58,391 nucleotides of DNA from Tychonema sp. LEGE 07203 (GTDB lineage: Bacteria; Cyanobacteriota; Cyanobacteriia; Cyanobacteriales; Microcoleaceae). Position numbers and translations under genes: made by a program. Positions 1,480 to 43,217 of the stretch are shown here, piece after piece; the first letter of the stretch is position 1, and each line of letters opens with the position of its first letter. The notes under the pieces are model-generated. The model worked only from the letters and a program-made list of their open reading frames with translations, searched no databases and was not told the origin of the DNA. The DNA is taken from the NCBI RefSeq assembly GCF_015207285.1, contig NZ_JADEXD010000014.1:1-58391 (forward strand), in the 5' to 3' direction.

Positions 1480-1517
1480 GTGCCGTTAGGCACAATTACC
1501 CCCTCCAGTTGAGGGGG
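1480..1517. promoter_or_regulatory. twin-hairpin element (GTTA-loop hairpin plus C5TC/GAG5 hairpin)
   Basis: Two hairpins lie side by side: GTGCC-GTTA-GGCAC (1480-1493), then CCCCCTC-CAGTT-GAGGGGG (1499-1517). A second copy with the same order and orientation is at 15192-15237, and both copies are followed by CGCTCA and GAAGTT within about 60 nt. The element sits between divergent genes: 37 nt upstream of the minus-strand acidic protein and about 90 nt upstream of the plus-strand ATPase. The first hairpin belongs to the leader-hairpin family described in the findings. Confidence 0.6.
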
Positions 1518-1606
1518 CGTATTTCGCTCATTAGCAGGAAGTTAAATTTTAATTATGTTAGTTAAATTTTTATGTTAAACATCCTGTATTTAGTTGTATA
1601 TGAATC

Positions 1607-3301
1607 ATGAAAACTTTCAATAATTGGTCTAAGTTAAGAGTTATTCAAACTCCCATAGTTGCCCTTGAATATTACAGTGCCGATCGCCAAAAAATCTTGT
1701 CATCATTTCATCAGTACGCCAGTGAGTGTTGTTTACCTGTTTATTATTGGAATCCAGGCTATGCAACTCTTCAACAGGTGCGGTGTTTGGATAAACATCT
1801 CCCGAATTTAGGTTTTCTTTCAGATATGGCAAGCCTTTCAGATATTTCCGAGATGTATAATAGTGAATGCGTTCTATATAAAACTGAGCTATCTGTCGAG
1901 AGTGATGTCCTGCAATTTCTGCTGGAAAATGACTACCCCGGTATCTTTTTGTTAGAGGACATTTTGGAATCAGAGAGTAGCGAACAGCCTCTTGTCCGCC
2001 GTTATTCTCAATTGGCTAACGCATTTTTTGAGCTGAAAGGGCGTTGGGCCGAGCTGAAAGGGCGTTGGGCCAACCAATATTGGGTACTGCTGGGTGAGTA
2101 CATCCAACTGCCATCAAAGCTAAGTCCATTAATTCCTCTACTCAAATGTCCGTTACCCGATCGTTTTGAAGTCGAAGTTCTTGTAGATAATTTTTGCGAG
2201 CGCAATTGTTCCCTTGATTTTGGTTCAGATGCGGTAGCTGCTAAAAAACGGCTGGCTGTTTCTAGTCTAGGGCTGCCAACTGCTGAAATTGAATTAGTAT
2301 TAGATCGATCGCTCTCTGTCACTACTTCAGTTGTCCATATCGCACAGTTGGTATTGGAGCATAAGATATCGCAACTTCGAGACCAGGGGTTGGAGTTCAT
2401 TGCTTCTCCAGACGTGCCTCATGCTGGCGGTTTAGATTTATTAGACGCTTATTTGAGCGAAGTCGTAAAGCTGTCAGAAGCTGATGCCAAGAAATATCAC
2501 CTCAGACCTCCCAAAGGAATGCTGCTGTGGGGGCCGCCGGGGACGGGCAAAAGTTTGAGTGCAAAGCTAGCTGCTAAGAAACTAGGTTATGCGCTTTTAG
2601 CAGCAAGTTGGGGCAATATTCTAGGTTCCTCTAATCCCGATCGCGCTCTCAACAAAATGCTGGATACAGCCGATAATTTGGGCGGCTGCGTGCTGTTTTT
2701 TGACGATTTTGACAAGGGTTTTTCTGGTTGGGAATCTAATGCTGATGGCGGTGCAGCTAGGCGACTGTCGCAGAAATTGCTCACATGGATGCAGGAGCAT
2801 GAAAGCCCCGTGTTAATGTTAGCTACTGTTAACCGCTTAGAAATGCTGCCGGCTGAACTTATTCGCAGATTTGACGACGGCGGAATCTGGTTTGTGGATT
2901 TGCCACACAGCGGCGCTCGCTATGAGATTTTCAACTTGCATTTGGCTAAGTATTTCCCAGAGCAATTTGGGGAAGGAAAAGAGAACCTTTGGAGCGACAG
3001 GCAGTGGTATTCGCTACTATCTGACTATGCCGGAGCAACGAGTGCTGAAATTGCGATCGCAGTTAAACGCTGTGCTGAGCGAGCTTATTGTGAAGGGCGA
3101 CCTGGTAAAATTGAATTGGCCGATCTGCGTTATCAGAGAACTCAGTTTGTGCTGTCGTCTGAGCGTTCTTCTGAAGATATCCAGGGGATTCGGAACAAAG
3201 CATCCTTTGCTCGGCCTGCTTCTGGGAGCGATCGGTCTTTATTTGCGGCCCGAGAGCAAGAATTATTCGAGTATCGACCGACTGCTTACGATAAAATTTG
3301 A
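1607..3301 (+). CDS. AAA+ ATPase, Ycf46-like
   Basis: A 564-aa protein with an N-terminal region lacking a recognised motif (about 1-230) and a C-terminal AAA+ domain. The Walker A motif GPPGTGKS is near residue 308. The Walker B-type segment VLFFDDFDK is near 363, sensor ATVNRL follows, and a candidate arginine finger lies in LIRRFDDGG near 416. The layout matches the cyanobacterial and plastid Ycf46 family, whose members have been linked to carbon and redox responses. Walker B has DD where many AAA+ proteins have DE; this may be normal for the family. A perfect 21-bp tandem repeat (2030-2050 and 2051-2071) duplicates seven residues (ELKGRWA) in frame. The gene is divergent from the acidic-protein gene and 86 bp upstream of the TPR-CHAT gene. 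Confidence 0.85.
   Translation: MKTFNNWSKLRVIQTPIVALEYYSADRQKILSSFHQYASECCLPVYYWNPGYATLQQVRCLDKHLPNLGFLSDMASLSDISEMYNSECVLYKTELSVESDVLQFLLENDYPGIFLLEDILESESSEQPLVRRYSQLANAFFELKGRWAELKGRWANQYWVLLGEYIQLPSKLSPLIPLLKCPLPDRFEVEVLVDNFCERNCSLDFGSDAVAAKKRLAVSSLGLPTAEIELVLDRSLSVTTSVVHIAQLVLEHKISQLRDQGLEFIASPDVPHAGGLDLLDAYLSEVVKLSEADAKKYHLRPPKGMLLWGPPGTGKSLSAKLAAKKLGYALLAASWGNILGSSNPDRALNKMLDTADNLGGCVLFFDDFDKGFSGWESNADGGAARRLSQKLLTWMQEHESPVLMLATVNRLEMLPAELIRRFDDGGIWFVDLPHSGARYEIFNLHLAKYFPEQFGEGKENLWSDRQWYSLLSDYAGATSAEIAIAVKRCAERAYCEGRPGKIELADLRYQRTQFVLSSERSSEDIQGIRNKASFARPASGSDRSLFAAREQELFEYRPTAYDKI
2030..2071 (+). repeat. perfect 21-bp in-frame tandem duplication
   Basis: Two identical 21-bp copies, 2030-2050 and 2051-2071, each encode ELKGRWA within the Ycf46-like ATPase. 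Their complete identity suggests recent slippage or duplication. Confidence 0.9.
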
Positions 3302-3387
3302 GTGCAACTAACTGAATTTTCCTAAACATTGCGCTACACCAAAAGTAACACAATTGAAACTTTATTGTTCGTCTCGCGCTCTCAGTA

Positions 3388-20265: not shown

Positions 20266-20283
20266 GGCGATAGCCGCTATCGG
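20266..20283. promoter_or_regulatory. divergent leader hairpins between DUF5895-like and traG/virD4-like genes
   Basis: GGC-GATA-GCC (20266-20275) lies 35 nt upstream of the minus-strand start at 20231. The overlapping CCG-CTAT-CGG (20274-20283) lies 32 nt upstream of the plus-strand start at 20315. Each reads CTATCG in the sense of its own gene. Both match the leader-hairpin family. Confidence 0.55.
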
Positions 20284-20314
20284 AAACATTTAGTTTTTTT
20301 TATACCTAAAAAAA

Positions 20315-27011: not shown

Positions 27012-28193
27012 TTAGAAATCATCCAAATTAAACAGCGTAAATTGGTGAGGAGATGTTGTCGTTTTTCTGGAGCGGCGTTTGCCCTTAACAACTTCTTGAA
27101 TTACTGGATTTGAGTGAATTGATGTCTGATCATTCAAGTCAATAACTTCTGAGCTTTCTCCTGAACTTATTTCATGTTCGACACGACAATCAGTATAATT
27201 TTCAGCCTGGGACTCGACTGGCTCAAACCACTCATTATACCAGTAAGCAGCGTTTATTGATTGAGGTCGATCGCTACTTAAAGTATTGCCAAGGAGCAAA
27301 TCAGTTTGACCCAACCACCAAATCGGAACAGCCAGCCAAGGTGAAAACATATAAAACTGAAACAAAGCGCATTTTAACAGAGTAGGGTCTATATCTTGAC
27401 CGATACCGCTCAGACAGTAATTCGACTGTGTTAACATTAAAGCACCCGTACCGCACGCAGGTTCATTGAAGCTGGAAATTCGCTCTGTTTTATCACCACT
27501 GACTAACTTAGATATGAACTGACACAAAGCTAAGGGTGTCGGATAAAACCCTGAACTTTTTTGAGCAGTCTTTCCGCAAATTTGGGGTAGCAGTCTGCCC
27601 ATATAATCTTCAGGATATAGCATGAGAATTGACAGGTCAAACATCTGATAGAGACGCATTGATGCACCTTCACAGCCGGCGGGTTCTTTGGGTAACATTT
27701 TATAAGCTGGATGTCCGAATGCGAACAAAACCCAGTCCAAGAAAAACTCCAAATAGTCCCAAGCTGACCAAGTTTTCCATTCTCCATGTTGAGGAATGCA
27801 ATTGAGAGTGTTATCTAGCATGGCTTCTGCGGTAGGAGAATGCTGCCATTCGATTTGGGGAATCGGTTCTGCTGGCAAAGTTTCCTCAATTACAAATTTG
27901 GGTAAAACTTCTGGTTTTCTGTTCTCCAGAATGGCTAGCATTGGCTCCATCTTCCACCGCATCCAGGCATGACTAGGGACAGCTTGACACAAAGCCCAAT
28001 AATCCCACCTTCCCCACAAACATCGGTCTATTTGTGCGAGAATTGTTAAAAGCCAGCCATGCTTTAAATCTCGTTTTAAGTTAGGGATTAGAGCTTGCTT
28101 TTTCTTTGGTTTATAGGGTTGCTTTCTGAAATGTAACAGCGTTAACTCTCTAGTCTTGGAGTCAATAACTGGTAAGACAAGCTTGTTTTTCAT
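27012..28193 (-). CDS. N6-adenine methyltransferase-like protein lacking NPPF/Y
   Basis: A 393-aa protein from ATG 28193 (a TTG lies 3 nt earlier). FYPTPLALCQFISKLV resembles the motif X region of N6-adenine methylases. NEPACGTGALMLT (near 242-254) is an S-adenosylmethionine-binding motif I, and GQDIDPTLLKCALFQF matches motif II. After GNTL, where active enzymes carry NPPF or NPPY, this protein reads SSDRPQSINAAYW, so the catalytic motif is missing or highly altered. No restriction endonuclease is adjacent. It may bind SAM or DNA without methylating, or be a divergent subgroup. It lies just downstream of iscB on the same strand. Confidence 0.65.
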   Translation of the reverse strand: MKNKLVLPVIDSKTRELTLLHFRKQPYKPKKKQALIPNLKRDLKHGWLLTILAQIDRCLWGRWDYWALCQAVPSHAWMRWKMEPMLAILENRKPEVLPKFVIEETLPAEPIPQIEWQHSPTAEAMLDNTLNCIPQHGEWKTWSAWDYLEFFLDWVLFAFGHPAYKMLPKEPAGCEGASMRLYQMFDLSILMLYPEDYMGRLLPQICGKTAQKSSGFYPTPLALCQFISKLVSGDKTERISSFNEPACGTGALMLTQSNYCLSGIGQDIDPTLLKCALFQFYMFSPWLAVPIWWLGQTDLLLGNTLSSDRPQSINAAYWYNEWFEPVESQAENYTDCRVEHEISSGESSEVIDLNDQTSIHSNPVIQEVVKGKRRSRKTTTSPHQFTLFNLDDF

Positions 28194-28240
28194 CAAAATA
28201 ATGGGTAGAAAGCCCGTCTTAAAAAACGGCTTTACTTGAG

Positions 28241-29533
28241 TTAAAATTGGTATGAATATCCATCTTTCCTCTGAAGAATATGACAGTATTTGTGGCTAAT
28301 ACCTTGTACCAATTCTTTTGCAGAAATATTGAAAGAGCCACTGCTGCGAACAGCCACTCGACCAATATATTGACCAACTTTCTTTCCACTGGTTACTACT
28401 GCTTTAACAATGTCGCCAGTTTGAAAACCTTTGACAAATTTGTCACGAGGTACATAACGAGATGGAAAACCAAATTTATCAGTGCGGCACATTTGTCGAG
28501 TGCCGTGACCGTTGGCCTTGATTAACAATGGTTGAGTGGTTAACACAATTAATTTATCAACCTTGCCAACACAAGCAGCATCAAAATAATGAGTTTTGGG
28601 CAACTCTAATCGAATGCGATTGTATTTTGTCTGCCCGCCGGAACCCGTCGTAACAGGTAATCCCGTTAGCTTGAGTTGATTAAACAATGCCCAGCGGGTT
28701 GAGTTGACGGCGGTAGCATCTTTGAGTGGTTGTTTGACTTGTGCCATAATTTGCTTGAGCAAATCTGGCTTCTTTAAAAGGAAGTCGTTAATATCTTGAG
28801 TACCTTTCTTGAGATTACATTTTTCGCAAGCTAAACACAGATTAGAGATTCGATTGCTACCTCCTTTTGCCTTGGGATGAATGTGCTCTACCTGCAAAGG
28901 AATATTTTCTACCTTGCAGTAAGTACATTTTCTCTCCCATTTGTTGAGCAGATATTCTCTGATTTCGTACCCAAGTAATTCGCCTTGCTGATATCCGACC
29001 CCATAAATTTCAGGTTTCTCTAGTTGTTGAAGGTCGAATCGAACTAACTCCATCGCAATACTATTTACGGGTGCAAATTTGATGAATTTGTTGACCCAGG
29101 TCAGCGTAGTATCTACTCGATGTTTTAAGCTAGGAGCTAGCCAACCTTTCGGACGAATGCGATTTAGGAAACGCGCTTGACGGTAGCGGGTATGTCTAGC
29201 TCGACGACTTCTACGGATAGCACGACGAGAATCCAAGCTAGCTTTAATTGCTTGTCCTCTGTGATTTAGCTCACCTACGAAGATGATATTTTCACCTTTT
29301 AGTAGCGCAATTCCCGTAGTTTTACTACCGGGATCGAGTTTGATCTCGTAGCTTGCGGGGCGGAACGCCATCGACTGTTCAGTTGTATTGACAGCACGTT
29401 TAAGAATGATGGTAAATGGGTATCTACGGAAGACCGCAGCTTCGCCATTTGAGAGTAATCTTCTAGCCACGGCAGGATGAACGGGATGTAGTGGTTGTTT
29501 ATTTGGGTCCAGTACAAAGGTATAGTTTTGCAT
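28241..29533 (-). CDS. iscB: IscB, RNA-guided nuclease (Cas9 ancestor family)
   Basis: A 430-aa protein from ATG 29533, with GGGAG as ribosome-binding site. The N-terminal PLMP region is recognisable (LDPNKQPLHPVHPAVARRLL). RuvC-I is LDPGSKTTGIAL (near 63), an arginine-rich bridge helix spans about 100-122, and RuvC-II is IAMELVRFD (Glu near 160). The HNH domain has CTYC, VEHIHPKAKGG, and CEKCN (near 197-245). RuvC-III is HYFDAACVG (near 313). All catalytic residues appear intact, so it should be an active nuclease guided by the omega-RNA encoded upstream. There is no tnpA transposase nearby, so the element is not autonomous. Confidence 0.92.
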   Translation of the reverse strand: MQNYTFVLDPNKQPLHPVHPAVARRLLSNGEAAVFRRYPFTIILKRAVNTTEQSMAFRPASYEIKLDPGSKTTGIALLKGENIIFVGELNHRGQAIKASLDSRRAIRRSRRARHTRYRQARFLNRIRPKGWLAPSLKHRVDTTLTWVNKFIKFAPVNSIAMELVRFDLQQLEKPEIYGVGYQQGELLGYEIREYLLNKWERKCTYCKVENIPLQVEHIHPKAKGGSNRISNLCLACEKCNLKKGTQDINDFLLKKPDLLKQIMAQVKQPLKDATAVNSTRWALFNQLKLTGLPVTTGSGGQTKYNRIRLELPKTHYFDAACVGKVDKLIVLTTQPLLIKANGHGTRQMCRTDKFGFPSRYVPRDKFVKGFQTGDIVKAVVTSGKKVGQYIGRVAVRSSGSFNISAKELVQGISHKYCHILQRKDGYSYQF

Positions 29534-29544
29534 GAAATTCTCCC

Positions 29545-29815
29545 TTGCGGGGTAATGTTTGCTTCGCCAATATTTCAAGAGCTTGTTAAGCTAACAACAC
29601 TGTTTCAGTGACCGTAAAACTGTTTAATTGTTAGCGACAGAGCAGAAGACTAGCACGCATCTAAGGGTGTCGTGACTCTCGAAATGTAGTCAGTTAAGAC
29701 TGTGGCTGGTCAGAATGGCTTACTGGATTTCTCCGGCAAGCCTCATGCATTTAGGCTGAGGTTCCTGACGAGTACAAGTCTGAAAAATGCACCCCTAAAA
29801 ACCGCGGTAGCGGTT
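29545..29815 (-). ncRNA. IscB omega-RNA region
   Basis: IscB guide RNAs are transcribed from the region just upstream of iscB, with the guide at the 5' end. Reading the minus strand from about 29790 toward iscB there is a non-coding, structured stretch (CCTCAGCC...GAGGCTTGCCGG, CAGCCACAG, and a long AACAGTGTTGTTAGC hairpin region) that fits an omega-RNA scaffold. The guide segment would lie at or beyond about 29795-29815, where a 6-bp hairpin AACCGC-GGTA-GCGGTT occurs (29800-29815). Exact ends cannot be set by eye. Confidence 0.6.
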
Positions 29816-29819
29816 CACA

Positions 29820-30019
29820 CATTTTAAGAATAGGGAGTGGGGAATGGGGAGTGGGGAGTAGCTTTTTATAATTAGAATCGCTCTGGAAGCAATGTTGAAC
29901 AATTGCCTATTTGTTTGATAACTTTTATGAAGTGAGTTCGTTTCCGGTTGCATTGGAATGGGAGTGGAGGTCAATAATTCCACATTCCCCCCCACTCCCA
30001 TTCCCCCATTCTTAAAATG
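29820..30019. repeat. 200-bp imperfect inverted repeat with G-rich arms at the helicase 3' end
   Basis: CATTTTAAGAAT (29820-29831) and ATTCTTAAAATG (30008-30019) are exact complements. Each continues inward into GGGAGTGGGG-type runs on its own strand. The right copy includes the stop codon of the helicase gene, so the left copy looks like an inverted duplication of that gene's end, placed next to the iscB element. Confidence 0.65.
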
Positions 30020-32636
30020 CTTCGCACAGCAGCAGCCCCACCTGCTTGAGTAAAGCTTTGTTACCATCAGGGCATCCCGACTGAATCAAACATTTAGGAC
30101 AGCCAGAACTGCAAGAACAACTGCGGGCTAACTCAGCAGCCGCATGAGCTAATTGAGGGAGAGAACGAAAAATAGCTTCCGAGGTTCCCGAACCCCCTTC
30201 TGCTAAATCGTAAAAGAGTCCTGCATAGTCATTTGCACCTCTCTTCTCTACCAGAAAATTCACATCATTAGGTGAAGCCAAAATAGTCAGAGGTAAAGCT
30301 GCTAAAATTTGATGGCCGAAACTGTGAATAGCCAACAAATTCGCGGGGTACTCCCACAACTGCTGATATCCGGGCTCCATCTCCTGTTGAGATTGAAGCA
30401 ATTCCTGGCGAGTAGCTGTTACTACGTGTTGCAGATAACATTCAACCGGGGAATTAAAACTAATTTGCAGTACAGGAGTCGCAAATTTGATTTCGTAAGG
30501 TTGCTCAAAGTTTACCTCATTAAGAACCGATGTTAGCTCAGCAGAGCGAGTTCTCTTGCCACAAACAGGACAGGCAGTACATTTTGGTAAATGCTCTTTG
30601 TAATTGACACACTTTCTATTGAGACAAGTTAACTCGTAATTGCGAGTTAATAATTGATAACCAGTGACGAGTTGGCTAATTTCTCCCCAAACCAGTTCCA
30701 GAATAGCTTGAGCTGGAATTGCCTTACTATCCGTTGAATTGGTTTGAACATTTCCTTCAACTTCTGGAATGACCAACGGGATTTGTTGAGGCAAACTCAA
30801 ATTCTGTTTGAGGCTGGTATCAGTGTGGCTAATCGCTACAGTAAACAGTCGAGTTTCAGGGGTGTTTTGCAAAATAGCTTTGCCATTCAAGAGTGAGCGC
30901 GAAGTATAAGTCACCAAACAGCCGTCTGAGTTTTGCGTGCGGTAAATAGCACCAGGAAATACCTCTCGATAAGCAATCTCCGCACTGAGGAGTTCAATCT
31001 CTTCTTGAGTCTCCGCATCCACCAGTTGTATCGTGCTAGAACCCGTTCCCCCTCGAAAGTTTACATCTTTATGGGGAAAGCCCTTAGCCCATAATTTATC
31101 CCGGCTTCTGTGAAGAACACCTTGCTCAATTAAAGCCGTTGCAATTATATGAGCGCTCTTGCCAAAGTAGTGCTTGAGCTTACTGGCAGGAATGCCTGTT
31201 TCGACAGCCGCGCACATCAAATGTTTGGCAATATCTATGGGATAATTGGCATTAAAGCTCACCAATTCAGATTCGGCCGACAGCAACAATTCAGGGCGTT
31301 CGGCAAAATAGTTATCCAAAGGTGATTGTGCAATGGGAATGAAGACAATTAAACCGGAGTTTGCGCGACCAGCCCTGCCAGCCCTCTGCCTAAAAGCTTG
31401 CAAGCTTCCCGGCCATCCCCTAATAATAGCAAAATCAAGTTGAGGCAAATCAATACCCGCTTCGAGAGCGCTAGTGCTCAGGATACACTTAACTGTTCCT
31501 GACTGCAAAGAGTTAATAATTTCCATGCGGCGCTCGCTTGTTAAACTGCCGTAGAAAATTGCTACTTGCGACTCAATTCCCGAGTTAGTTTGAGTTACAG
31601 CTTCTTGCTTAAAAGTTGCCCACAAGTTCTTAATTGCTTGTCTGCCGTTACCGAAGCAAATTCCGCTTTGCCCTTGCTGCAACAAAAACATAATGATGCG
31701 AGCAACATCGGAATTAGCATCATGAGTCGGTTTAGTAACAATTAATTGCCGTTCTGGGACAGCAGCTCCGCTAGAGTTAATCCAAACTAACCGCTCGGGT
31801 TTATTGATATTTCGCTTTCGACTTCTACCAGATAGTAACTTCGCTAATTTAACGGGATTGCCAACGGTAGCACTCAACATTAGGAATTGCAGTTTTTGAG
31901 AACAACCTCCGCGCTCGTCTACTGCCAATTTTAATCGGCGAATTAAGCTAGCCATGTTAGCTCCGTAAACTCCGTTAAAAGTGTGAGCTTCATCTAGGAC
32001 AATATAGCGGAGGCGACTTAAAAAATGCTGCCAAGGCTGACTCCAGTGAACGCCTTTCAGCGCATAGTGAATTAACTCTGGTGTGGCGCTGATTATGCTA
32101 GGATTTGCAGCTAATAATTGTTCTCGGGTTTTGGGAGGAGTATCCCCAGTTAGAAGGGCAAGGCGCGGGCGCGCAGGCTCAGGAATCAGTTGGAGCAAAT
32201 CGGCAAGTTTTTGACTTTGGTCGGCTGTTAAAGCTTTCAAGCCATAAATAGAGAGTGCAGTAAATTGATGTTGGAGAATGCCCTCTAAAATAGGCAAGTA
32301 CGCACTTAAAGATTTGCCAGAAGCTGTTGCTGTGCTGAGGATGACATCTTTGCCCTGGCGCACAGCTTTGAGTGTTTTAATTTGGTGCGAATAAAGCTGT
32401 TGAATGCCTTGGCTGTGCAAAGCAGAAATTATTGAAGGCGGCAAGTCTTGAGGAATTTTGTAGAGCTTAGGAGTTGTAGCAGTCGCGATTGTCTGATAAA
32501 TAACCTCTTCGCCTAAAAACTCACACAAATCGGCTGTTGCAGTTGGCTGCAAGTGGCTTGCTTCTGGGAAGTTATTTGGGTGAAAATCATGTCTGGCTAT
32601 TAGTTGGGAAAGAAGGTTGATATAATTGGGAGGCAT
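30012..32636 (-). CDS. MrfA/Hrq1-type DEAH helicase with C-terminal zinc domain
   Basis: An 874-aa superfamily 2 helicase. Walker A is STATASGKS (near 103-111). The DEAH box is VLDEAHTF (near 211). Motif III is MLSATVGNP, and motif VI is QRAGRAGRANSG. A zinc-ribbon-like insert lies near 690-720 (CLNRKC, KCTACPVCGK). The C-terminal DUF1998-type cysteine cluster is CSCSSGCPKCLIQSGCP (near 840-856). This matches MrfA/YprA and Hrq1, which repair bulky DNA damage and cross-links. One polypeptide carries both parts, unlike the split DrmA/DrmB of DISARM. A perfect leader hairpin (32670-32683) is 34 nt upstream of ATG 32636, as at dnaX and dnaN. Confidence 0.9.
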   Translation of the reverse strand: MPPNYINLLSQLIARHDFHPNNFPEASHLQPTATADLCEFLGEEVIYQTIATATTPKLYKIPQDLPPSIISALHSQGIQQLYSHQIKTLKAVRQGKDVILSTATASGKSLSAYLPILEGILQHQFTALSIYGLKALTADQSQKLADLLQLIPEPARPRLALLTGDTPPKTREQLLAANPSIISATPELIHYALKGVHWSQPWQHFLSRLRYIVLDEAHTFNGVYGANMASLIRRLKLAVDERGGCSQKLQFLMLSATVGNPVKLAKLLSGRSRKRNINKPERLVWINSSGAAVPERQLIVTKPTHDANSDVARIIMFLLQQGQSGICFGNGRQAIKNLWATFKQEAVTQTNSGIESQVAIFYGSLTSERRMEIINSLQSGTVKCILSTSALEAGIDLPQLDFAIIRGWPGSLQAFRQRAGRAGRANSGLIVFIPIAQSPLDNYFAERPELLLSAESELVSFNANYPIDIAKHLMCAAVETGIPASKLKHYFGKSAHIIATALIEQGVLHRSRDKLWAKGFPHKDVNFRGGTGSSTIQLVDAETQEEIELLSAEIAYREVFPGAIYRTQNSDGCLVTYTSRSLLNGKAILQNTPETRLFTVAISHTDTSLKQNLSLPQQIPLVIPEVEGNVQTNSTDSKAIPAQAILELVWGEISQLVTGYQLLTRNYELTCLNRKCVNYKEHLPKCTACPVCGKRTRSAELTSVLNEVNFEQPYEIKFATPVLQISFNSPVECYLQHVVTATRQELLQSQQEMEPGYQQLWEYPANLLAIHSFGHQILAALPLTILASPNDVNFLVEKRGANDYAGLFYDLAEGGSGTSEAIFRSLPQLAHAAAELARSCSCSSGCPKCLIQSGCPDGNKALLKQVGLLLCEAF

Positions 32637-32669: not shown

Positions 32670-32683
32670 CTACCGATAGGTAG
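32670..32683 (-). promoter_or_regulatory. leader hairpin of the MrfA/Hrq1-type helicase gene
   Basis: CTACC-GATA-GGTAG, in gene sense CTACC-TATC-GGTAG, is a 5-bp perfect stem 34 nt before the start codon. The loop with its closing pair reads C-TATC-G. Confidence 0.55.
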
Positions 32684-33694: not shown

Positions 33695-34645
33695 TTATTT
33701 AGTGAGTTGAGTGATTCTGAGCAAAGCAGGCAACATTGAATCAGACTTTTCTCCGGTTTTGAGGGCAATTTCTAAATCAAACAAAATGGATAGCGATCGA
33801 CTTAAGAAGTTCGCAGATACTTCCTTAACCTCCTGCTTAAGGAAATACAGCCGTTTGGGGTTACTAATTCCGCACATACTAGCAATTTCACTATCAGAAA
33901 GTTTGCCGCCGGAATCCAGAGTAGCTTTTACCCACAGCCAAGTTTTAAACTGAGTTTGAAGAGTAGCAATAATTGCTAAAGAAAACTCTGCCCGAGATAG
34001 CAATTCATCAAGCACCTTAATTGCCGCCACTGCTTGACCTTTTAAAAGAGCTTCTGCCAGTTGAAAACAGTTGGCTGTGGTAGCTGGAACGAGGATTTTA
34101 GCAGCTTCTTTGGTAATGCGATCGCCCGCAGCATAAATGGCTAATTTCTCCAGTTCACTAACTCTTCTAGCAGAATCGTTACCAATCGCTACCGCTAGAT
34201 AACTGACAGCATCTCTGGCAATTGAGAGATTCATCTGTTTAGCAGTAGCAGCGATTGCATTTTCAATTAAATCAGTACGCCAAGGAGGAATGAGAGTAAA
34301 CTCCTTAAGTTTACCAAACAGCAATAAATGCTTGACTACCTTGAGCCGTTTGTCGATAACAGCAGCAGTGAAAACTAAGTGCGTTGTGGTAGGTAAATGG
34401 GGCAAGATTTGCAGTAGTTCTAGCCCCGTCTCCCCAAATTGCTTGAAATCACAATTCTCAACTACGATAAGTTTACTTCCGACACCAAAAGGAACTGAAG
34501 CAGCCGCAGAAATAGCTATATCCAGGGAAGAAGCATCAAACCGATGGATGTTGAAATCTCGCCAGAGAGGATGAGTTTGAGTCTTAAACTTTTCAACTTC
34601 TCGTTCAATTGCGTAGGTGTCATTCCCAATTAGGATGCTAATCAT
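33695..34645 (-). CDS. holA: DNA polymerase III delta subunit
   Basis: A 316-aa protein with the layout of HolA: LIGNDTYAIEREVEKF at the N-terminus, a FTAAVIDKRLKVVKHL region, then the helical collar domain (FQLAEALLKGQAVAAIKVLDELL). Delta opens the beta clamp in the clamp-loader complex. The start overlaps the end of dnaX by 4 nt, forming a dnaX-holA operon; chromosomal copies are normally separate. A second, plasmid-borne clamp loader is implied. The gene ends at a strong terminator. Confidence 0.88.
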   Translation of the reverse strand: MISILIGNDTYAIEREVEKFKTQTHPLWRDFNIHRFDASSLDIAISAAASVPFGVGSKLIVVENCDFKQFGETGLELLQILPHLPTTTHLVFTAAVIDKRLKVVKHLLLFGKLKEFTLIPPWRTDLIENAIAATAKQMNLSIARDAVSYLAVAIGNDSARRVSELEKLAIYAAGDRITKEAAKILVPATTANCFQLAEALLKGQAVAAIKVLDELLSRAEFSLAIIATLQTQFKTWLWVKATLDSGGKLSDSEIASMCGISNPKRLYFLKQEVKEVSANFLSRSLSILFDLEIALKTGEKSDSMLPALLRITQLTK

Positions 34646-36057
34646 GCTGCTAACTCCTCCTGTTGTTTGACAGTGACAGTAACCGAGCGGCCTAAAGCTT
34701 TAGTAACAATCCGCTGCACGGATTCAAGGTGACTCTGAAACTTGTTCGCGTACTTTCTTTCTACTGCTAACACACATGAATCAGCCGAAAGTTCGGCAAT
34801 TTGAGCGCGGTTTAATAGGCTACGATTGCCTGGTTTCGCTGCTGCTACTACTTGCGCCCAAGTTGTTTCAAAGTCAGGAGAATCTGCCTCTATTTTTTGA
34901 GGGGTTTTATCAAATTTGTCAGGCTGATTAGATTGGGAAGTTGCCGGCAACCGCGTTTCGGGGGCAGCGGGTTTGCTTGACAGCATCAAGTTCAGCAGGC
35001 AAACTTCTAACCACGTAGCTGCATTGGTGCTAGTTCTCAATTGAAATTCTGATTTCTGCAATTGTGCACAAGCCGCATCAATTGTTTCAAAATCCAGATG
35101 AAGAGCGATCGATCGCAGTTGTGAGTAGCCTACTGGCCCTGCAATTAAATTCTGGCAGTGGCGCGTTGATTTGACAATGAGCAAATCTCTCATTGCTGCT
35201 AGCAAGCTGCTGAGAATAAGTTTAGGGGTTTTGCCGCTGTCAATGAGCGTTCTCGAAGATTGCAGTACGCTTAGGGTATCGCCAGAATGAATGGCTTTGA
35301 GAAGGGCGATCGACTCTTGCTCGCTGATACTGCCAGATACTTCTGCAACTTGAGTTAGGGTAATCTCTGAGTTTAGCAGTGAAAGCTGAGAAAGTAATTG
35401 CAGGGCATCTCTTAACCCCCCGTCACAGGTGCGAGCGAGATCCCGCATGGCCTCACTTGCGATCGCAATAGATTCAGCAGAGCTAATTTTGTGCAATTGT
35501 CCGACAATAGCATCAACTGACAAGGCTCGGAAGTTAAAAGTTTGGCAGCGGGAGATAATTGTCGGCAGGACTTTATGTGCTTCAGTCGTACAGAGAATAA
35601 ACACCACATGAGCCGGAGGTTCTTCAAGGCATTTGAGGAGAGCATTTTGAGCGCTGGTACTGAGTTGGTGACACTCGTCTAAAATCCAAATGCGGTAACG
35701 GCTCATCGCTGGGGCAAAGTTGCTGTGTTGTATTAATTCTCTGGCATCATCCACGCCATTGTGAGAGGCAGCATCGATTTCAGTTACGTCTAAGCTTGAA
35801 CAGGAGTCAATGGTTTTGCAGCTTGAACATTCCCCGCAAGGAGTGGCGGTTGGCTTTTTGTTATTCAAACAATTGAGTGATTTAGCAAGGATGCGAGCGG
35901 TTGAGGTTTTGCCTGTTCCTCTGGGGCCAGTAAACAGGTAAGCTTGAGCAATTTTGTCGGAGGTGATGGCATTGGTCAAGGTTGTTTTGATGGTGTCTTG
36001 ACCCACTAATTCTTGGAGGCTTTTGGGTCGGTATTTGAGGTGCAGTGGTTGGTACAT
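34642..36057 (-). CDS. dnaX: DNA polymerase III gamma/tau subunit
   Basis: A 471-aa AAA+ clamp-loader ATPase. Walker A is FTGPRGTGKTSTARILAKSL (near 42-60). A zinc site is formed by the CGECSSCKTIDSC cluster, and Walker B is WILDECHQLS. The sensor region is CTTEAHKVLPTIISRCQTF, with the SRC arginine finger. At 471 residues it is nearer gamma length than full tau. It is the first gene of the dnaX-holA operon. ATG 36057 follows a perfect leader hairpin TCCCC-TATC-GGGGA (gene sense, 36089-36102) by 32 nt. It is presumably specific to replication of this replicon. Confidence 0.93.
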   Translation of the reverse strand: MYQPLHLKYRPKSLQELVGQDTIKTTLTNAITSDKIAQAYLFTGPRGTGKTSTARILAKSLNCLNNKKPTATPCGECSSCKTIDSCSSLDVTEIDAASHNGVDDARELIQHSNFAPAMSRYRIWILDECHQLSTSAQNALLKCLEEPPAHVVFILCTTEAHKVLPTIISRCQTFNFRALSVDAIVGQLHKISSAESIAIASEAMRDLARTCDGGLRDALQLLSQLSLLNSEITLTQVAEVSGSISEQESIALLKAIHSGDTLSVLQSSRTLIDSGKTPKLILSSLLAAMRDLLIVKSTRHCQNLIAGPVGYSQLRSIALHLDFETIDAACAQLQKSEFQLRTSTNAATWLEVCLLNLMLSSKPAAPETRLPATSQSNQPDKFDKTPQKIEADSPDFETTWAQVVAAAKPGNRSLLNRAQIAELSADSCVLAVERKYANKFQSHLESVQRIVTKALGRSVTVTVKQQEELAA

Positions 36058-36088: not shown

Positions 36089-36102
36089 TCCCCGATAGGG
36101 GA
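36089..36102 (-). promoter_or_regulatory. leader hairpin of dnaX-holA
   Basis: TCCCC-GATA-GGGGA on the plus strand; in gene sense the loop with its closing pair is C-TATC-G. A pyrimidine run (CGTTCCCC) directly precedes it in gene sense, and it lies 32 nt before the dnaX start codon. Confidence 0.55.
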
Positions 36103-37253: not shown

Positions 37254-38765
37254 TTATTCTTGCGGAGCCACAACGTATTCGCACTCTAACGCCTCTGTAC
37301 CTGAAGCTGGCGTGCCAAAAGGTACAATCAGTAGAGGAGCCGTAGGAGTTGCCATCAGCAGCCGCAAATCCGAACTAGAAACAGCTTTAATTGTATCAAT
37401 CAAATAGCGGATATCGCACTTGAGCCGAAAGTCACAACCCCAGAGTTTGGCGTCAACTGTCTCAGTACCAGAACTGAGAGTATTGTTGAGTGAAGCTCGC
37501 ACCTGTTGCGCCTCTAAATCAAAGTCAAAAATTGCCGTGATATGAGACTTGTCACTATGAGTAGCCAACCTCTCTAAAGCTTTTAAAAAGCTGAGTCTTT
37601 CAACTACGATTTGATGACTAAGTTCAGACCGATAAGGAGCAATAATCTGGTCGCATTTCGGGTAATTTCCTTCAAGTAACTGTGCTGTTAGTCGCAAATT
37701 ATTCCACTCAAACGCCACAAATTTGCTAGCTTGTTCTGCCGAACCGTCATAATAAATCGTAACTTTGTCACTGGCATTTACAGAACGCTCCAATACCCGG
37801 AGTACCTTAGCGGGAACAGTAAAATTTACTGTTTGAAAGTTTAAAAACTGAGAATTGCTGCTTTCACTCAATCCGACAATCATAGCTACCCGATGCCCGT
37901 CAGTCGTCCACACTCTTAGTTGGTTAAGTCTTCTGTCTGCGTCATGACTCAGTTGAAAGTTAGCTCCCATCAAAATGCGTTTGGTTTCCTCAGAAGTAAC
38001 AGCAAATAAGCTAGCTTTGAGGACAGCGATTAATACACTAGCAGGAAGTGTTACAAGTTTTTGTTTAACACTAGGGATAGTCGGAAATTCATCCGCAGCT
38101 AACCCGCGAATAACGTGCTTGCTATTTGATGAACTTAAAGTCGCACTGACAGAGGGAATATCACTTCCTTTGATAATTTCAAAGGAACTCTTTAAGGTAA
38201 GGCGGCCGTTCGGAAATTTCCCCAGAATATCAGCGAGTATAGGTGCGGGGAGGGTGAGTTTTCCGGGTTGATTGACATTGGCATCAAAATTTACTTGCAT
38301 TCCAAATTCCAAATTGTACCCAGTGAGGTGCAGTTGTTGATTTTCGGCATCAGCCTCAATCAAGATATTGCACAAAATAGGATGACTGGTATTGCTAGGA
38401 ATGATGCTTTTGAGTGTCTGTATGTAATCGTTGAATTCTCTTAAATCACAGGCAATTTTAACAGTCGATGGGGAAGAGGTCGGAGTTAGAGATGCTGTGA
38501 TTTCATTATTGAGATGGGTTTCTAGAGTTGGATTTGTTGGGGTATCAGAAGGTGTAGAAGTTCCATTATCTGTAATGTAGTTCGCTTCTACTTCTTCTAT
38601 TTGTGTTGTTTTGGGTAGGGGAGAAGAAAGCTTAGTTGTTTTTTTGACTGATGGCTTCGTAGTAGGAGTCAAATTAGTGCCTGTTACAGTTGAGGGTTTT
38701 TTCTTAGCTGTTCTCTCCACTACTTCCTCTTTAGAAGGTGTTCCAGAAAGTCGAGATTTGGCCAT
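37254..38765 (-). CDS. dnaN: DNA polymerase III beta subunit (sliding clamp) with N-terminal extension
   Basis: A 503-aa protein. The first 100 residues are low-complexity (Thr, Ser, Pro, Lys-rich) and have no counterpart in the usual 370-390-aa clamps. The three clamp domains follow, starting KIACDLREFNDYIQTLKSII, with the central FPTIPSVKQKLVTLPASVL, TDGHRVAM and the GNYPKCDQIIAPYRS segment. The C-terminus (EYVVAPQE) differs from the conserved M-P-hydrophobic-R ending, so partner binding may be altered. A leader hairpin (CTGC-TATC-GCAG in gene sense, 38801-38812) is 36 nt upstream of ATG 38765. With dnaX-holA it suggests a plasmid-specific clamp system. Confidence 0.92.
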   Translation of the reverse strand: MAKSRLSGTPSKEEVVERTAKKKPSTVTGTNLTPTTKPSVKKTTKLSSPLPKTTQIEEVEANYITDNGTSTPSDTPTNPTLETHLNNEITASLTPTSSPSTVKIACDLREFNDYIQTLKSIIPSNTSHPILCNILIEADAENQQLHLTGYNLEFGMQVNFDANVNQPGKLTLPAPILADILGKFPNGRLTLKSSFEIIKGSDIPSVSATLSSSNSKHVIRGLAADEFPTIPSVKQKLVTLPASVLIAVLKASLFAVTSEETKRILMGANFQLSHDADRRLNQLRVWTTDGHRVAMIVGLSESSNSQFLNFQTVNFTVPAKVLRVLERSVNASDKVTIYYDGSAEQASKFVAFEWNNLRLTAQLLEGNYPKCDQIIAPYRSELSHQIVVERLSFLKALERLATHSDKSHITAIFDFDLEAQQVRASLNNTLSSGTETVDAKLWGCDFRLKCDIRYLIDTIKAVSSSDLRLLMATPTAPLLIVPFGTPASGTEALECEYVVAPQE

Positions 38766-38798: not shown

Positions 38799-38814
38799 CG
38801 CTGCGATAGCAGTG
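38799..38814 (-). promoter_or_regulatory. leader hairpin of dnaN
   Basis: CGCTGC-GATA-GCAGTG on the plus strand (one G-T pair in the stem). In gene sense the loop with closing pair is C-TATC-G. CCCCCTC precedes it in gene sense. A homopurine tract (about 38811-38870) and a GAAACCCGGTTTC palindrome (about 38914-38926) fill the rest of the 38766-39003 gap. Confidence 0.55.
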
Positions 38815-39003: not shown

Positions 39004-40407
39004 CTACAATTGAGCTAATACTCGTTGCACTCTGAATGAATTAGGAGGGACAAATAGTATTCGTTGACGACATCTACTTGTTCCAACATATAAAAGACGG
39101 TGGTACTCTTTAAGTTTCTCTTGGCTGCTCATTTCTTTGCCTACCAAAAGTCGAGTTAAAATGTCATTGCTGTCCAAACCAACTTCCTCAAAAGTGCTAC
39201 CTTGAGAATTGTGAATAGTCAGGGCAAAGCAATTGTCAACTTCGGCAAATACGTCATCTTTAAACCAATAATACTTCCGCCAGAGAAATCCATTACGTTT
39301 GGCACTTTTGAGTTTCTCTTTCAATTCAGCTTGGTAGCGCTTACTTTCCGATTCATGCAGCACAAAGATTTGCCGAAATAGACCATCATCAGTCATAATC
39401 TTCAACAGCCATACTCGGTAGCCGTAGTGCTGACTTATTTCAACTTGCTGTATGGTAAATTCAGTTGATGTGGCTAAAATCACAGTCTTACCATCAGGAG
39501 CGAGAACTGGTTTCTTAGTAATTAACCTTTCTCCAGATATAAATCGGGCAGTTGTTCGACCATAAAGTTGTTCTCGAACAGCCTGATTGTAATAGTTGAC
39601 TCGCTTGTTTGTCCAGCACAAAATCCGGAAACAATCAGGATTTGAGGCAAATTCTCGCTTGATGGTTTTGATAGCATATTGGATGAGTGCTTCTGGTTTA
39701 ACTTTGAATGCACCGTTAGATTTGTCTAATGAGTTGTAATTCGGATGTGGCAAAAAGACATCTGTTTTACTCTTGACAAATGAGCGACATTCCGTAATAA
39801 AATCAAGGACGGGGCTTTCTCCAGCTTGTCTAACCACTTGAGTTAATACAGCTTTATTGGCAATATTGAAAGCAGGCGAGCGCTTTTCTCCAACAGGATT
39901 AAGTTGCGCTGGGTCGCCCATGAGAATTAATTTCCGCTGATTGAAGAGAGTATGTTCAAATCTGCGCTCAATCCAAGACCACAATTGAGTTCCAACCATC
40001 GAACATTCATCGAGGAAAATGATATCATAGAGGTGGAGGTAACAACAGCTTGTCTGTTCTAAGACTTTCTCTTGTTCTTTGCGAACCATGCCTAAGCCTA
40101 AAAGCTGGTGTATCGTCATAAAATCTACTCCGAAAATGCCTTGAGATGCTGCCATTTTTCTGAGGATACCGACGGCTTTGTTAGTGGGTGCTGTGAGGGC
40201 AATGCGCTTGCTTTGAGCTAAGAGTTCTTTGATTATAAGGAAAATAAGTGTGCTTTTTCCCGTGCCTGCATAACCGCAAAGCAAGAAGAATGCGGAAGTG
40301 CTGCTTGCAAATGTTCTCAAATTGTTGAGTGCTTGCTGCTGCTGCGGCTTGAGAGTAAAGGGAATTTGTTTAAATTCCTGCGGTCGTTCTAGTAAAGTTT
40401 GAATCAT
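39004..40407 (-). CDS. SF1B DNA helicase, Dda/RecD-like
   Basis: A 467-aa helicase. Walker A is CGYAGTGKSTL (near 44-54), motif II is IFLDECSMVG, motif III is LMGDPAQLNPVGE and motif V is ALTIHNSQGSTFEEVGL. Motif VI is RLLYVGTSRCRQ. The compact size and TIHNSQG motif match T4 Dda and RecD-like 5'-3' helicases, which remove proteins from DNA and help initiate replication. A leader hairpin AAGC-TAGC-GCTT (gene sense, 40444-40455) is 37 nt upstream of ATG 40407, directly preceded by CCCCCTC. It belongs with the replication block. Confidence 0.9.
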   Translation of the reverse strand: MIQTLLERPQEFKQIPFTLKPQQQQALNNLRTFASSTSAFFLLCGYAGTGKSTLIFLIIKELLAQSKRIALTAPTNKAVGILRKMAASQGIFGVDFMTIHQLLGLGMVRKEQEKVLEQTSCCYLHLYDIIFLDECSMVGTQLWSWIERRFEHTLFNQRKLILMGDPAQLNPVGEKRSPAFNIANKAVLTQVVRQAGESPVLDFITECRSFVKSKTDVFLPHPNYNSLDKSNGAFKVKPEALIQYAIKTIKREFASNPDCFRILCWTNKRVNYYNQAVREQLYGRTTARFISGERLITKKPVLAPDGKTVILATSTEFTIQQVEISQHYGYRVWLLKIMTDDGLFRQIFVLHESESKRYQAELKEKLKSAKRNGFLWRKYYWFKDDVFAEVDNCFALTIHNSQGSTFEEVGLDSNDILTRLLVGKEMSSQEKLKEYHRLLYVGTSRCRQRILFVPPNSFRVQRVLAQL

Positions 40408-40443: not shown

Positions 40444-40455
40444 AAGCGCTAGCTT
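40444..40455 (-). promoter_or_regulatory. leader hairpin of the Dda-like helicase gene
   Basis: AAGC-GCTA-GCTT on the plus strand; in gene sense the loop with closing pair is C-TAGC-G. CCCCCTC immediately precedes it. The 40408-40676 gap otherwise holds the terminator at 40625-40653. Confidence 0.5.
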
Positions 40456-41057: not shown

Positions 41058-41090
41058 GGTAAAATTCCTCAAATTTTTGGATAGCCAGTA

Positions 41091-41120
41091 AAAGACTCAA
41101 AGATTACTCCTTGAGTCTTT
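41091..41120 (-). terminator. terminator or attenuator hairpin between the NADAR-like and SLOG-like genes
   Basis: AAAGACTCAA (41091-41100) and TTGAGTCTTT (41111-41120) are perfect complements. On the minus strand the stem ends in TCTTTTACTG. It follows the stop of the gene at 41144 and precedes the start at 41057. Confidence 0.6.
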
Positions 41121-41143
41121 GTGAAGAATGCAATTGCTTCTTA

Positions 41144-41539
41144 CTAACACACCAAGATATAAGCTGAAATCAAGCATTGAATGAAATTGCTTTTTCTGCC
41201 TTGACCTTCCCAACGAGAGCCGCGCACACCAACAATGTGATTGCATTGTTCAAGCCAAGCAACTCCACCATATTTTGCGATTGTTTTTAATAATCGTGGA
41301 TGTTGTTGAAGTTTCGCAACAATAATTTCTGTCATTATTGTCATATCTTGTTGCAAATGTCCAAATTTGTGATTTTGATAAGCAGCTTCAGCATCACGGA
41401 AAACCTTGCCATTGAACTCAACTGGGTAGTGATTCTTGAGGTTTCCTTTTCTAAAAGCTAACTCTGTGGGATTAGTTAATGCTGCCCCAATTCCGATGCT
41501 GCATCCAGACCAAATATTGATTTCTTTCATCTTTTTCAT
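41144..41539 (-). CDS. NADAR/YbiA-like protein, 131 aa
   Basis: The protein reads WSGCSIGIGAALTNPTELAF, then YPVEFNGKVFRDAEAAYQNHKF, and ends with GVRGSRWEGQGRKSNFIQCL. The pattern of a short strand, a G-K-x-F..AEAAYQ.HK segment and a C-terminal helix resembles the NADAR superfamily, which removes ADP-ribose from nucleic acids or splits riboflavin intermediates. The call rests on motif resemblance only. ATG 41539 is used; MKEINI is a possible later start. A leader hairpin TCGCC-TAGC-GGCGA (gene sense, 41651-41664) and a 10-bp inverted repeat (41592-41643) lie upstream. Confidence 0.55.
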   Translation of the reverse strand: MKKMKEINIWSGCSIGIGAALTNPTELAFRKGNLKNHYPVEFNGKVFRDAEAAYQNHKFGHLQQDMTIMTEIIVAKLQQHPRLLKTIAKYGGVAWLEQCNHIVGVRGSRWEGQGRKSNFIQCLISAYILVC

Positions 41540-41591
41540 CTTCTAACTTTTAGCTCGTCAGCACTTTTAATTGAAGTGGTGTAGTAAACCC

Positions 41592-41664
41592 TGACTTTCT
41601 CGGATTGCTCCTTGTTGTTGGTATTTATAAGTAGAGAAAGTCAACATTTTTCGCCGCTAGGCGA
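41592..41664. promoter_or_regulatory. inverted repeat plus leader hairpin upstream of the NADAR-like gene
   Basis: TGACTTTCTC (41592-41601) and GAGAAAGTCA (41634-41643) are perfect complements. TCGCC-GCTA-GGCGA (41651-41664), a 5-bp perfect stem with the GNTA loop, follows. It may include a terminator for the upstream gene ending at 41745. Confidence 0.5.
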
Positions 41665-41744
41665 TTTATCTTCCGGATTTGTAACAGAGTTTTTAATCGC
41701 ATTTACATTGGTTACAGACTAGCCAATTTTCTTCCCAATTCCCA

Positions 41745-42980
41745 TCATTTTGGCATCTTTTCTAAATCAAGTTCAGCCACTTCCCGCAGAGCTTCTAAGC
41801 GCTTCTTTAAAGTTTTATGTCGGGGAGTTTCTACAACATACTCGTATTTAGAACCTGTATGTTGAAGTTCTGGAATTTGGCAATCAATTAGGTAGCTAAG
41901 GCGACCAACTAGCTTTTTAATAACTATTAGCCAAGCCTTAGCTAACGCTTTAGTACGGAAACCAATCCAAGCTTTAAAGTAAGAGCCGTCTTCGCTAACT
42001 TGGTAAGCAACATTGGGCGATAATTTAATAAGAGTTGGGATATGAGTAATGCCTAAACTTTTGAGTTCAGTCAAGCTGTAGCTTTGAATTTCTCCACTGT
42101 CCCATTGAATTTGAAATGGGCGTAGTGCCTGAATATTCAAACTAATGACTATTCCCCTTTGTTCCACTTGATTTCGGCGTTGTTCGAGGCAATCGCCCTC
42201 TCGAAAACCACTCCATCCATGTTTCTTAGCTAAATGTTTAAGGCAATATTCCCAGGCTTCTTCCCAAGCAATATCAAAGTCGAGAATGTGATAACTTTCT
42301 GTACTCAATTGTTTAGTCAATTTCTCTTTGATTTGCTGCTTTTGAATTGGTAGGACAATTTCTAAGAAATTGTCGGGGACTTCAAAAAATAAATGGGTCT
42401 TAGCCCTAATTTTTAGGTCATTGAAAGACAAAAAGCGACTGGCTTCTAATTGTTCGGGTGTAAAAACATCTATGGCACAACTTGTCGGGTAGCCAGGGAA
42501 CAAGTTGATGGGAAAGAGATAATAGTGGTCAAGAGTAAATATGAGAATGTGATGTTCAGTGAGCGATTCTACTTGGAAAGTAGTGGTGTTACTGAATTGT
42601 AGTTTTTGCGAATTAGCTAGTACAATTGTTGTGCAAGCGGGAAGTTCTCCAGTAGTTTTTTGAGGAATAAACAGAGGCACAAGGGATATTTTAAGCACCC
42701 GAATTTCATCTAAGGTATAATTCCAGGAAAAACTATCTTCGTTGTTACTAGCATCCCAAGTAATTATTACAGGTCTATCGGTTTGATGGAGGGCTGTTAT
42801 CGTGCCGTAATGGTTGCCAGATTTGACGATATCGCCTACTTTAAAGGGAAGTTGAGCGAAAGGAGGCGGAGTGAGAAAAGGAAAAATTACCGCTACCACT
42901 TCTTTGACTTCACTGGGGGGAGCGTTGTCAGGTTTAGAGCAAGTATTTGAGAAGCCAATTAAAGTCGTGTTAGAGTCCAT
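41745..42980 (-). CDS. hypothetical cyanobacterial protein, 411 aa, two SH3-like segments
   Basis: I do not recognise a named family. Near residue 45-100, FKVGDIVKSGNHYGTITAL looks like a small beta-barrel of the KOW/SH3 type. A second one may be near 240-300 (GFREGDCLEQRRNQVEQRGIV... IQWDSGEIQSYSLTEL). The C-terminus is rich in Lys and Glu (KTLKKRLEALREVAELDLEKM). ATG 42980 is preferred over a TTG at 43007. A leader hairpin (TCCC-CTAAC-GGGA in gene sense, 43012-43024) lies 32 nt upstream, as at the replication genes, so it may belong to the plasmid core set. Confidence 0.65.
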   Translation of the reverse strand: MDSNTTLIGFSNTCSKPDNAPPSEVKEVVAVIFPFLTPPPFAQLPFKVGDIVKSGNHYGTITALHQTDRPVIITWDASNNEDSFSWNYTLDEIRVLKISLVPLFIPQKTTGELPACTTIVLANSQKLQFSNTTTFQVESLTEHHILIFTLDHYYLFPINLFPGYPTSCAIDVFTPEQLEASRFLSFNDLKIRAKTHLFFEVPDNFLEIVLPIQKQQIKEKLTKQLSTESYHILDFDIAWEEAWEYCLKHLAKKHGWSGFREGDCLEQRRNQVEQRGIVISLNIQALRPFQIQWDSGEIQSYSLTELKSLGITHIPTLIKLSPNVAYQVSEDGSYFKAWIGFRTKALAKAWLIVIKKLVGRLSYLIDCQIPELQHTGSKYEYVVETPRHKTLKKRLEALREVAELDLEKMPK

Positions 42981-43217
42981 AACCTTTGAGAAGCTAATTG
43001 TTTTCAACTTCTCCCGTTAGGGGATATCTTCTCGCGCTTAATCCCTTAACTTTTTGTGGTTTAATATCAAATCCGAACTAGTTTGTGCTTTATTTCGGCT
43101 TAAATTTTTTTGAAGTCTTGCTAAGTACCTCCCCTGTTGTCTAATAAAGATTGCCAGAAGTGGATTGACCGACAATTGGCATATTCTGCAATAGAAAAAG
43201 CGTTTGGGAATCAATAA

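Follow-up and report, generated by a model that had tools for sequence, protein, structure and literature searches.

Small hairpins of one shared design stand shortly before the start codons of replication and other core genes in the window analysed here, the whole of a 58,391-nucleotide (nt) contig (G000 C233; NZ_JADEXD010000014.1) from the genome of the cyanobacterium Tychonema sp. LEGE 07203. In these hairpins, a Watson–Crick stem of 3–6 base pairs (bp) with a closing C-G pair carries a TANC loop, read in the sense of the gene, about 30–45 nt before the start codon. This pattern is genuine and occurs widely on cyanobacterial plasmids. The best single explanation, which in our judgement has an even chance of being right, is a promoter acting as folded DNA, with the hairpin as its core. 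The window contig represents an incomplete plasmid sequence and encodes a beta clamp, DnaX, HolA, a family A polymerase, helicases, a DUF5895 protein and a coupling ATPase. Plasmids pOSC7112.02 and pOSC7112.04 of Oscillatoria nigro-viridis PCC 7112 share 92.9% DNA identity with the window over 54% of a 12-kb query and 83.5% over 42%, respectively.

Loop, distance and strand of the hairpins

In a first set of 11 plasmids including the window (1.9 Mb), every perfect stem of at least 4 bp with any tetraloop was collected from both strands, and a hairpin was counted as gene-proximal when it lay 24–45 nt before an ATG-initiated open reading frame (ORF) of at least 80 amino acids (aa). By this measure, 44 of the 107 C-TANC-G hairpins are gene-proximal, which ranks first among 256 classes defined by closing pair and loop (XYNZ), as compared with 3/107 for the reversed loop C-GNTA-G and 709/17,612 for all tetraloops. 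Since plasmid W01 is close kin of the window, these counts are not independent, and a second set was therefore taken, consisting of 78 loci around DUF5895 genes in a genome collection (from at least 80 confirmed loci among 114 pattern matches). Here C-TANC-G with a stem of at least 4 bp again ranks first, with 85/124 hairpins gene-proximal, compared to 702/12,454 for all tetraloops. All 85 lie on the strand of DUF5895 and none on the opposite strand. Apart from those before DUF5895 itself, 38/38 gene-proximal hairpins, with 26 distinct N-termini downstream, are on the plus strand, as compared with a 666:497 split by strand of the ATG ORFs of at least 100 aa in the same loci.

In control DNA, scanned for hairpins with the C-G closing pair, 0/14 TANC hairpins stand near an ATG: 0/3 in 268 kb of host contigs, 0/7 on W12 and W20, which carry distant DUF5895 relatives, 0/3 on W08 and 0/1 in L009 and L011. 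The same scan gave 46/109 for the 11 DUF5895 plasmids, 7/14 for W14 and W15, and 85/123 for the loci, its edges differing slightly from those of the 78-locus scan (85/124). Among 208 distinct TANC hairpins, 76 lie 30–39 nt and 22 lie 40–49 nt before an ORF, and no other 10-nt bin as far as 200 nt holds more than 9; 69 have no ORF within 200 nt. On 10 plasmids including the window, hairpins before ORFs number 63 on the main strand and 6 on the other (W08 has none). The loop, strand and distance statistics all exceed the control classes and control DNA, which bears out the original prediction, made from the window alone, that the hairpins are more than chance; as also expected there, the hairpin recurs on related plasmids and in the 78 loci from other cyanobacteria.

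Stem covariation and the choice between DNA and RNA

Covariation was assessed at CTANCG cores 28–45 nt before an ORF of at least 60 aa, with pairing not required and sites more than 70% alike removed, which left 226 sites on the strand of DUF5895 (the plus strand in the case of W08, where DUF5895 is absent) and 78 on the other strand. At the 226 sites, stem pairs 2, 3 and 4 are formed 163, 116 and 102 times, versus 110, 57 and 59 in shuffles (z of 10.2, 9.6 and 6.9), and all four pair types occur at each of these positions. By comparison, the 78 other-strand sites show no excess pairing over shuffles. Because the sites share descent, the z values are not probabilities, and the other-strand null is the better control. 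The covariation supports the earlier proposal of a strand-specific structure before replication and core genes, as opposed to a double-stranded DNA (dsDNA) operator with fixed half-sites.

Such a structure could also act as RNA, in the 5' untranslated region, where a plasmid protein, perhaps DUF5895 itself, would bind C-UANC-G and repress or coordinate translation of the replisome; we consider this unlikely, though with a substantial minority chance. Its position 30–45 nt before start codons suits such a role, as does the hairpin of the DUF5895 gene itself, present with a TANC loop and a stem of at least 3 bp in 63 of the 75 loci with upstream sequence; the phage protein T4 gp32 binds its own mRNA. 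G·U pairs, which an RNA leader should tolerate in its stem, are not favoured here. With the other pairs intact, G·U occurs at positions 2, 3 and 4 in 1/69, 0/88 and 5/97 sites, and A·C in 2, 3 and 4 cases; position 5 (60 sites) has 3 G·U and 5 A·C. Terminator stems, which act as RNA, hold 26 G·U versus 3 A·C at positions 2–5 in the same DNA, so that G·U and A·C stand at 6:9 in the hairpins (positions 2–4) versus 26:3 in the terminators (Fisher p 0.0009). Since G·U is no commoner than A·C in the hairpin stems, unlike in terminators, a DNA hairpin is favoured over an RNA hairpin; this is support for DNA-level pairing, not proof of it. In addition, the only described RNA family found in the window by an Rfam gathering search is HEARO, at 29552–29769, which likewise speaks against an RNA leader.

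Where the gene sense has the loop TANC, the template strand reads C-GNTA-G. The template-strand loop GNTA falls within the d(cGNNAg) tetraloops, an unusually stable class according to a title cited in PMC2984261, and under DNA parameters the template-strand hairpin is the lower in energy at 60/60 sites because of the loop terms. At the sites of two Nostocales gene families the loops vary (TATT, GATT, GATC and GTTC) with the hairpin kept, which indicates that in these families at least the loop is less strictly defined than TANC. The stems TAGCC and GAAGC are kept at sites before the MEQMNLIPPE and MNTQEIQE proteins (L134, L136, L145 and other Nostocales loci).

Flanking sequence and transcription start

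Across 105 nonredundant sites, the 50 nt upstream of the stem contain no position above 0.1 bit, and the CCCCCTC-like run noted at first before several hairpins is therefore not a general feature. Downstream of the hairpin, by comparison, the same sites show a weak pattern at fixed spacing. At 51 array sites from Anabaena WA102, Dolichospermum, Spirulina and others, for which the core GCTANCGC was required, the motif, counted from the loop end, consists of G at +8 (75%), T at +13 (75%), G at +14 (73%) and T at +16 (82%), followed by a T run. Purines are conserved at +8/+9 and +14/+15 from the loop end. The spacing to the ATG is fairly tight in the arrays, being 32–34 nt at 29/51 sites.

In the array of the Anabaena WA102 plasmid (L115, 12000–22000), numerous small genes share a strand, and many of the units run from hairpin through short leader and gene to terminator; arrays like it are also found in L185, L189, L193 and L196.

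A terminator stem ends within about 22 nt upstream of the hairpin at 15/51 array sites, as compared with 2.3 expected from shuffles, and at 2/52 other stem-4 sites (0.57 expected); a stricter terminator scan of all 105 nonredundant sites found only 8 within 60 nt. TANNNT is absent from the 25 nt before the hairpin at 14 of 18 terminator-abutting sites, which were picked by label and include one beyond the 17 (15 + 2) counted, and certain intergenic gaps hold little more than terminator, hairpin and leader. An abutting upstream terminator implies that the next RNA starts at or after the hairpin, unless the terminators are leaky, and leaves scant room for an upstream promoter that would place the hairpin within the mRNA. 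With G·U not favoured, terminators abutting and only the downstream flank conserved, with nothing at fixed distance upstream, the RNA operator with a translational regulator put forward in the original prediction becomes less likely. An RNA hairpin would also leave the one-strand bias, and the co-orientation with a relaxase described below, unexplained.

Depletion of TATAAT-like boxes near the hairpins (63 sites, mononucleotide shuffles) was not used as support, since it is the same in genes without hairpins (612 versus 28). No −10 box at fixed spacing was found on either side of the hairpin at the 105 sites.

DUF5895, a candidate partner of the hairpins

The protein family that accompanies the hairpins is represented in the window by one gene:

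19167–20231, minus strand: DUF5895 protein (PF19247, E 1.5e-42), a candidate cofactor resembling single-stranded DNA-binding protein (SSB), or a candidate hairpin reader

Predicted proteins of at least 50 aa from 12 plasmids were compared by all-against-all BLAST with single linkage. DUF5895 is the only family common to all 11 hairpin plasmids, and it is not found on W08, where no TANC hairpin is gene-proximal; with a single negative plasmid the control is thin, and diverged families could escape single linkage.

The predicted fold of DUF5895 has a high-confidence core, with 193/354 residues at a predicted local distance difference test score of at least 90 and a mean of 77.2. Foldseek against the PDB gave no match at E ≤0.001; among the matches listed, TM-scores are at most 0.24, and Whirly, RPA, Cdc13 and SsbA are mixed with unrelated proteins. 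A viral library gave 28 matches at E ≤0.001. Two proteins without a name and a third called DUF5895 have the best TM-scores (0.50–0.56), and two named phage single-stranded DNA (ssDNA)-binding proteins reach about 0.2. An acidic C-terminus, which SSB proteins carry, is present in 11/14 aligned DUF5895 proteins. The viral-library matches and the acidic C-terminus are what suggest an SSB-like protein, and DUF5895, present on all 11 hairpin plasmids compared, is the likely helper of the hairpins. A protein of Armadillidium vulgare iridescent virus with a DUF5895 domain name is among the Foldseek neighbours of the window protein, and the predicted fold may extend to eukaryotic DNA viruses.

No DUF5895 was found in a phage collection by tblastn with two queries, and two scans of viral contigs with DUF5895 alignments confirmed no relative; two further scans of viral contigs, by pattern, returned 1 and 0 stretches. 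On Planktothrix contigs called viral, a DUF5895 protein is listed together with a beta clamp and a DnaB helicase, according to the available part of PMC10343443; these contigs may be plasmids of the present family, or phages with the same module.

A proposed promoter working as folded DNA

In the promoter that we propose, the template strand would become single-stranded during conjugative transfer or replication, or would be extruded by supercoiling, and would then fold as a stable hairpin of the d(cGNNAg) type. A host or plasmid polymerase would recognise the hairpin and initiate 10–20 nt downstream, and the SSB-like DUF5895 protein of the plasmid would stabilise or select the hairpin. In the F plasmid, genes that point the same way as the relaxase gene are transcribed from the T-strand. 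If this rule holds here, the transferred strand would serve as the template of the hairpin genes, and the replisome and SSB genes could be expressed from the incoming ssDNA. On relaxase-bearing plasmids, the majority of hairpin genes are co-oriented with the relaxase gene, and DUF5895 and the PF03432 relaxase are co-oriented in 12 of 13.

The hairpin ssDNA promoter, named as a second possibility at the outset, is thus the better fit to the balance of G·U and A·C, the abutting terminators and the downstream motif, without being proven by them. More tentatively, and with somewhat less than an even chance, the hairpins may constitute an undescribed class of DNA-hairpin promoters (template C-GNTA-G) that lack sigma70 boxes, are activated by DUF5895 as an ssDNA-binding protein, lie on one strand and serve the replisome, SSB-like and accessory genes of a widespread cyanobacterial plasmid family, so that the replication machinery is expressed from plasmid DNA that is single-stranded on arrival or after unwinding. 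A literature search on DUF5895 and on such plasmid hairpins or ssDNA promoters, with most subscription literature outside its scope, found no description among the papers listed.

Several observations weigh against a folded-DNA promoter. On W02, the relaxase and two genes with hairpins of 4–5 bp are opposite in strand to the dnaN/DUF5895 block, as if that block and the relaxase-side genes had been inverted relative to each other. Of the six other-strand hairpins, W02 has three (5, 4 and 3 bp), whereas W05 (4 bp), W10 (3 bp) and W13 (3 bp) have a single one, which in each of these three cases we take for chance. The PF03432 relaxase is absent from W03, from W16 (WA102) and from three of five array genomes (the completeness of those three being uncertain), and transfer therefore cannot be the sole role of the hairpins. 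No hairpin of at least 3 bp precedes DUF5895 in 12/75 loci, and 50/52 of the other stem-4 sites have no abutting terminator. The −10 test fails to separate hairpin genes from others, and the fairly tight ATG spacing in the arrays would equally be expected of an RNA element close to the start of translation. G·U might be rejected by a 4-bp stem even as RNA, and the loops TATT, GATT, GATC and GTTC would not all form a sheared G·A pair in the template strand. Finally, no polymerase gene, such as one for a virion polymerase of the phage N4 kind, was identified: a search for the T7-type RNA polymerase (PF00940) gave 0/15 records but is uninformative, as it gave no match in its 14 control genomes either, and no family other than DUF5895 is shared by all 11 hairpin plasmids.

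W02 (NC_020051) is the sole plasmid with hairpins of at least 4 bp before ORFs of at least 190 aa on both strands.

Comparison with known systems

The early promoters of the N4 virion RNA polymerase, as described in the available part of PMC4496689, have a small DNA hairpin as their core, in which stem bases are replaceable if paired and the template-strand loop is stabilised by a sheared G·A pair; the hairpin is centred at −11 from the start, and E. coli SSB activates the promoter. The plasmid hairpins are likewise small, and their stem bases are exchangeable with pairing kept, as seen from the covariation at pairs 2–4. They are distinct in the loop, which has 4 nt (template C-GNTA-G) as compared with the 3-base loop of N4, of the template C-GNA-G type, and in serving dozens of plasmid genes as compared with three early promoters.

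The available part of PMC11541004 describes Frpo/ssi sequences as promoters that arise by folding of the transferred ssDNA, are stimulated by SSB and are located upstream of SSB genes, and leading-region promoter families of several kinds as enriched and all on one strand. The plasmid hairpins share the one-strand arrangement and are found upstream of an SSB-like gene (DUF5895). However, Frpo rebuilds −35/−10 boxes for host RNA polymerase, for which the plasmid stem of 3–6 bp is too short and lacks a visible −10; and unlike Frpo in the leading region, the hairpins, 10–16 nt in length, stand before replisome genes scattered over whole cyanobacterial plasmids. By comparison, translational operators of the T4 gp32/RegA type are RNA structures before the start codons of replication genes, a position that the hairpins share; the plasmid stems differ in that they do not favour G·U and, in the arrays, often lie just after terminators.

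Folded-ssDNA promoters are known from few systems (N4-like phages and Frpo of conjugative plasmids). If true, the proposed promoter would add a further, independent-looking system, acting gene by gene in many cyanobacterial genera and tied to an SSB-like protein. It would provide a simple sequence rule for spotting the genes whose expression may begin when a plasmid enters a cell, and would suggest a function for DUF5895; the establishment of conjugative plasmids in cyanobacteria would become directly testable.

Other explanations

Apart from the RNA hairpin discussed above, the hairpins could be single-strand initiation sites at which primase or RNA polymerase primes the second strand, with the same RNA doubling as mRNA. 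The one-strand bias, the DNA-level pairing, the matches of DUF5895 to ssDNA-binding proteins and the co-oriented relaxase are all consistent with this; pure priming, however, needs neither a spacing of 30–45 nt nor one site per array gene, and we regard it as improbable. Slightly less probable again is that a plasmid regulator uses the hairpins as a palindromic dsDNA operator or −35-like element, in which case the downstream fixed-spacing motif could complete a dsDNA promoter; against this, the stem sequence varies freely with complementarity kept, and the loop lacks symmetry and is tied to one strand. Chance hairpins, or the spread of a cyanobacterial repeat such as HIP1 (GCGATCGC), which the GATC-loop variants resemble, are refuted by the loop, strand and distance statistics, the covariation and the control DNA, and retain a practically negligible probability.

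Hairpins of the window

The window has 12 C-TANC-G hairpins with stems of at least 3 bp, split 11 versus 1 by strand, and 7 of the 12 have a gene start 35–41 nt downstream, measured from the loop end to the start codon. Those before genes are:

1480–1493, minus strand: hairpin GTGCC-TAAC-GGCAC, 41 nt before the ATG of an acidic 243-aa protein (712–1443)
20266–20275, minus strand: hairpin GGC-TATC-GCC, 37 nt before the ATG of DUF5895
32670–32683, minus strand: hairpin CTACC-TATC-GGTAG, 38 nt before an MrfA-like helicase (30012–32636)
36089–36102, minus strand: hairpin TCCCC-TATC-GGGGA, 36 nt before dnaX (34642–36057), with holA next
38801–38812, minus strand: hairpin CTGC-TATC-GCAG, 39 nt before dnaN (37254–38765)
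40444–40455, minus strand: hairpin AAGC-TAGC-GCTT, 40 nt before a Dda-like helicase (39004–40407)
43013–43022, minus strand: hairpin CCC-TAAC-GGG, 35 nt before a 411-aa protein (41745–42980)

The first six, which were the main examples of the original prediction, were all recovered at their positions on the minus strand, with start codons 36–41 nt from the loop end. Several are shared with other plasmids: the ortholog of the acidic protein on W01 (at 180733) carries an identical hairpin, the dnaX hairpin is identical on W01, in Gloeocapsa (W02) and on W03, and dnaN is preceded by a hairpin on W01, W02, W03, W04, W05, W06, W07 and W13 as well. Of the two cases first thought weaker, the 411-aa protein holds up, with orthologous sites on W01 (CCC-TAGC-GGG) and W03 (CCC-TAAC-GGG). 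The coupling ATPase does not, as the sole C-TANC-G there on that strand has a one-pair stem; a larger palindrome, CGATAGCGGCTATCG, overlaps the DUF5895 hairpin within 20266–20285 and may account for that case.

Three hairpins had been noted farther from genes, and the first can now be assigned to one from which it is parted by an IscB/HEARO insertion:

29800–29815, minus strand: hairpin AACCGC-TACC-GCGGTT, parted from its gene by the insertion
27012–28193, minus strand: gene MKNKLVLPVID..., originally downstream of the 29800 hairpin
28241–29578: IscB gene (RRXRR/HNH), within 28197–29799, between the 29800 hairpin and the start codon at 28193
29552–29769: HEARO RNA of IscB (Rfam, 146 bits)
648–661, minus strand: hairpin GCCTC-TATC-GAGGC, with only a 24-aa ORF at the usual distance
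41651–41664, minus strand: hairpin TCGCC-TAGC-GGCGA, 116 nt before a 131-aa ORF

In L123, the uninterrupted site orthologous to 29800–29815 has a spacing of 36 nt and the loop TACT. No gene of at least 60 aa stands at the usual distance from the hairpin at 648 or from that at 41651; on W01, a hairpin identical to the former lies 46 nt ahead of an ORF of 144 aa.

The genome of the window also holds a second dnaN-like stretch (G000:C194:53456-54568), which is diverged (34% identity) and contains one in-frame stop.

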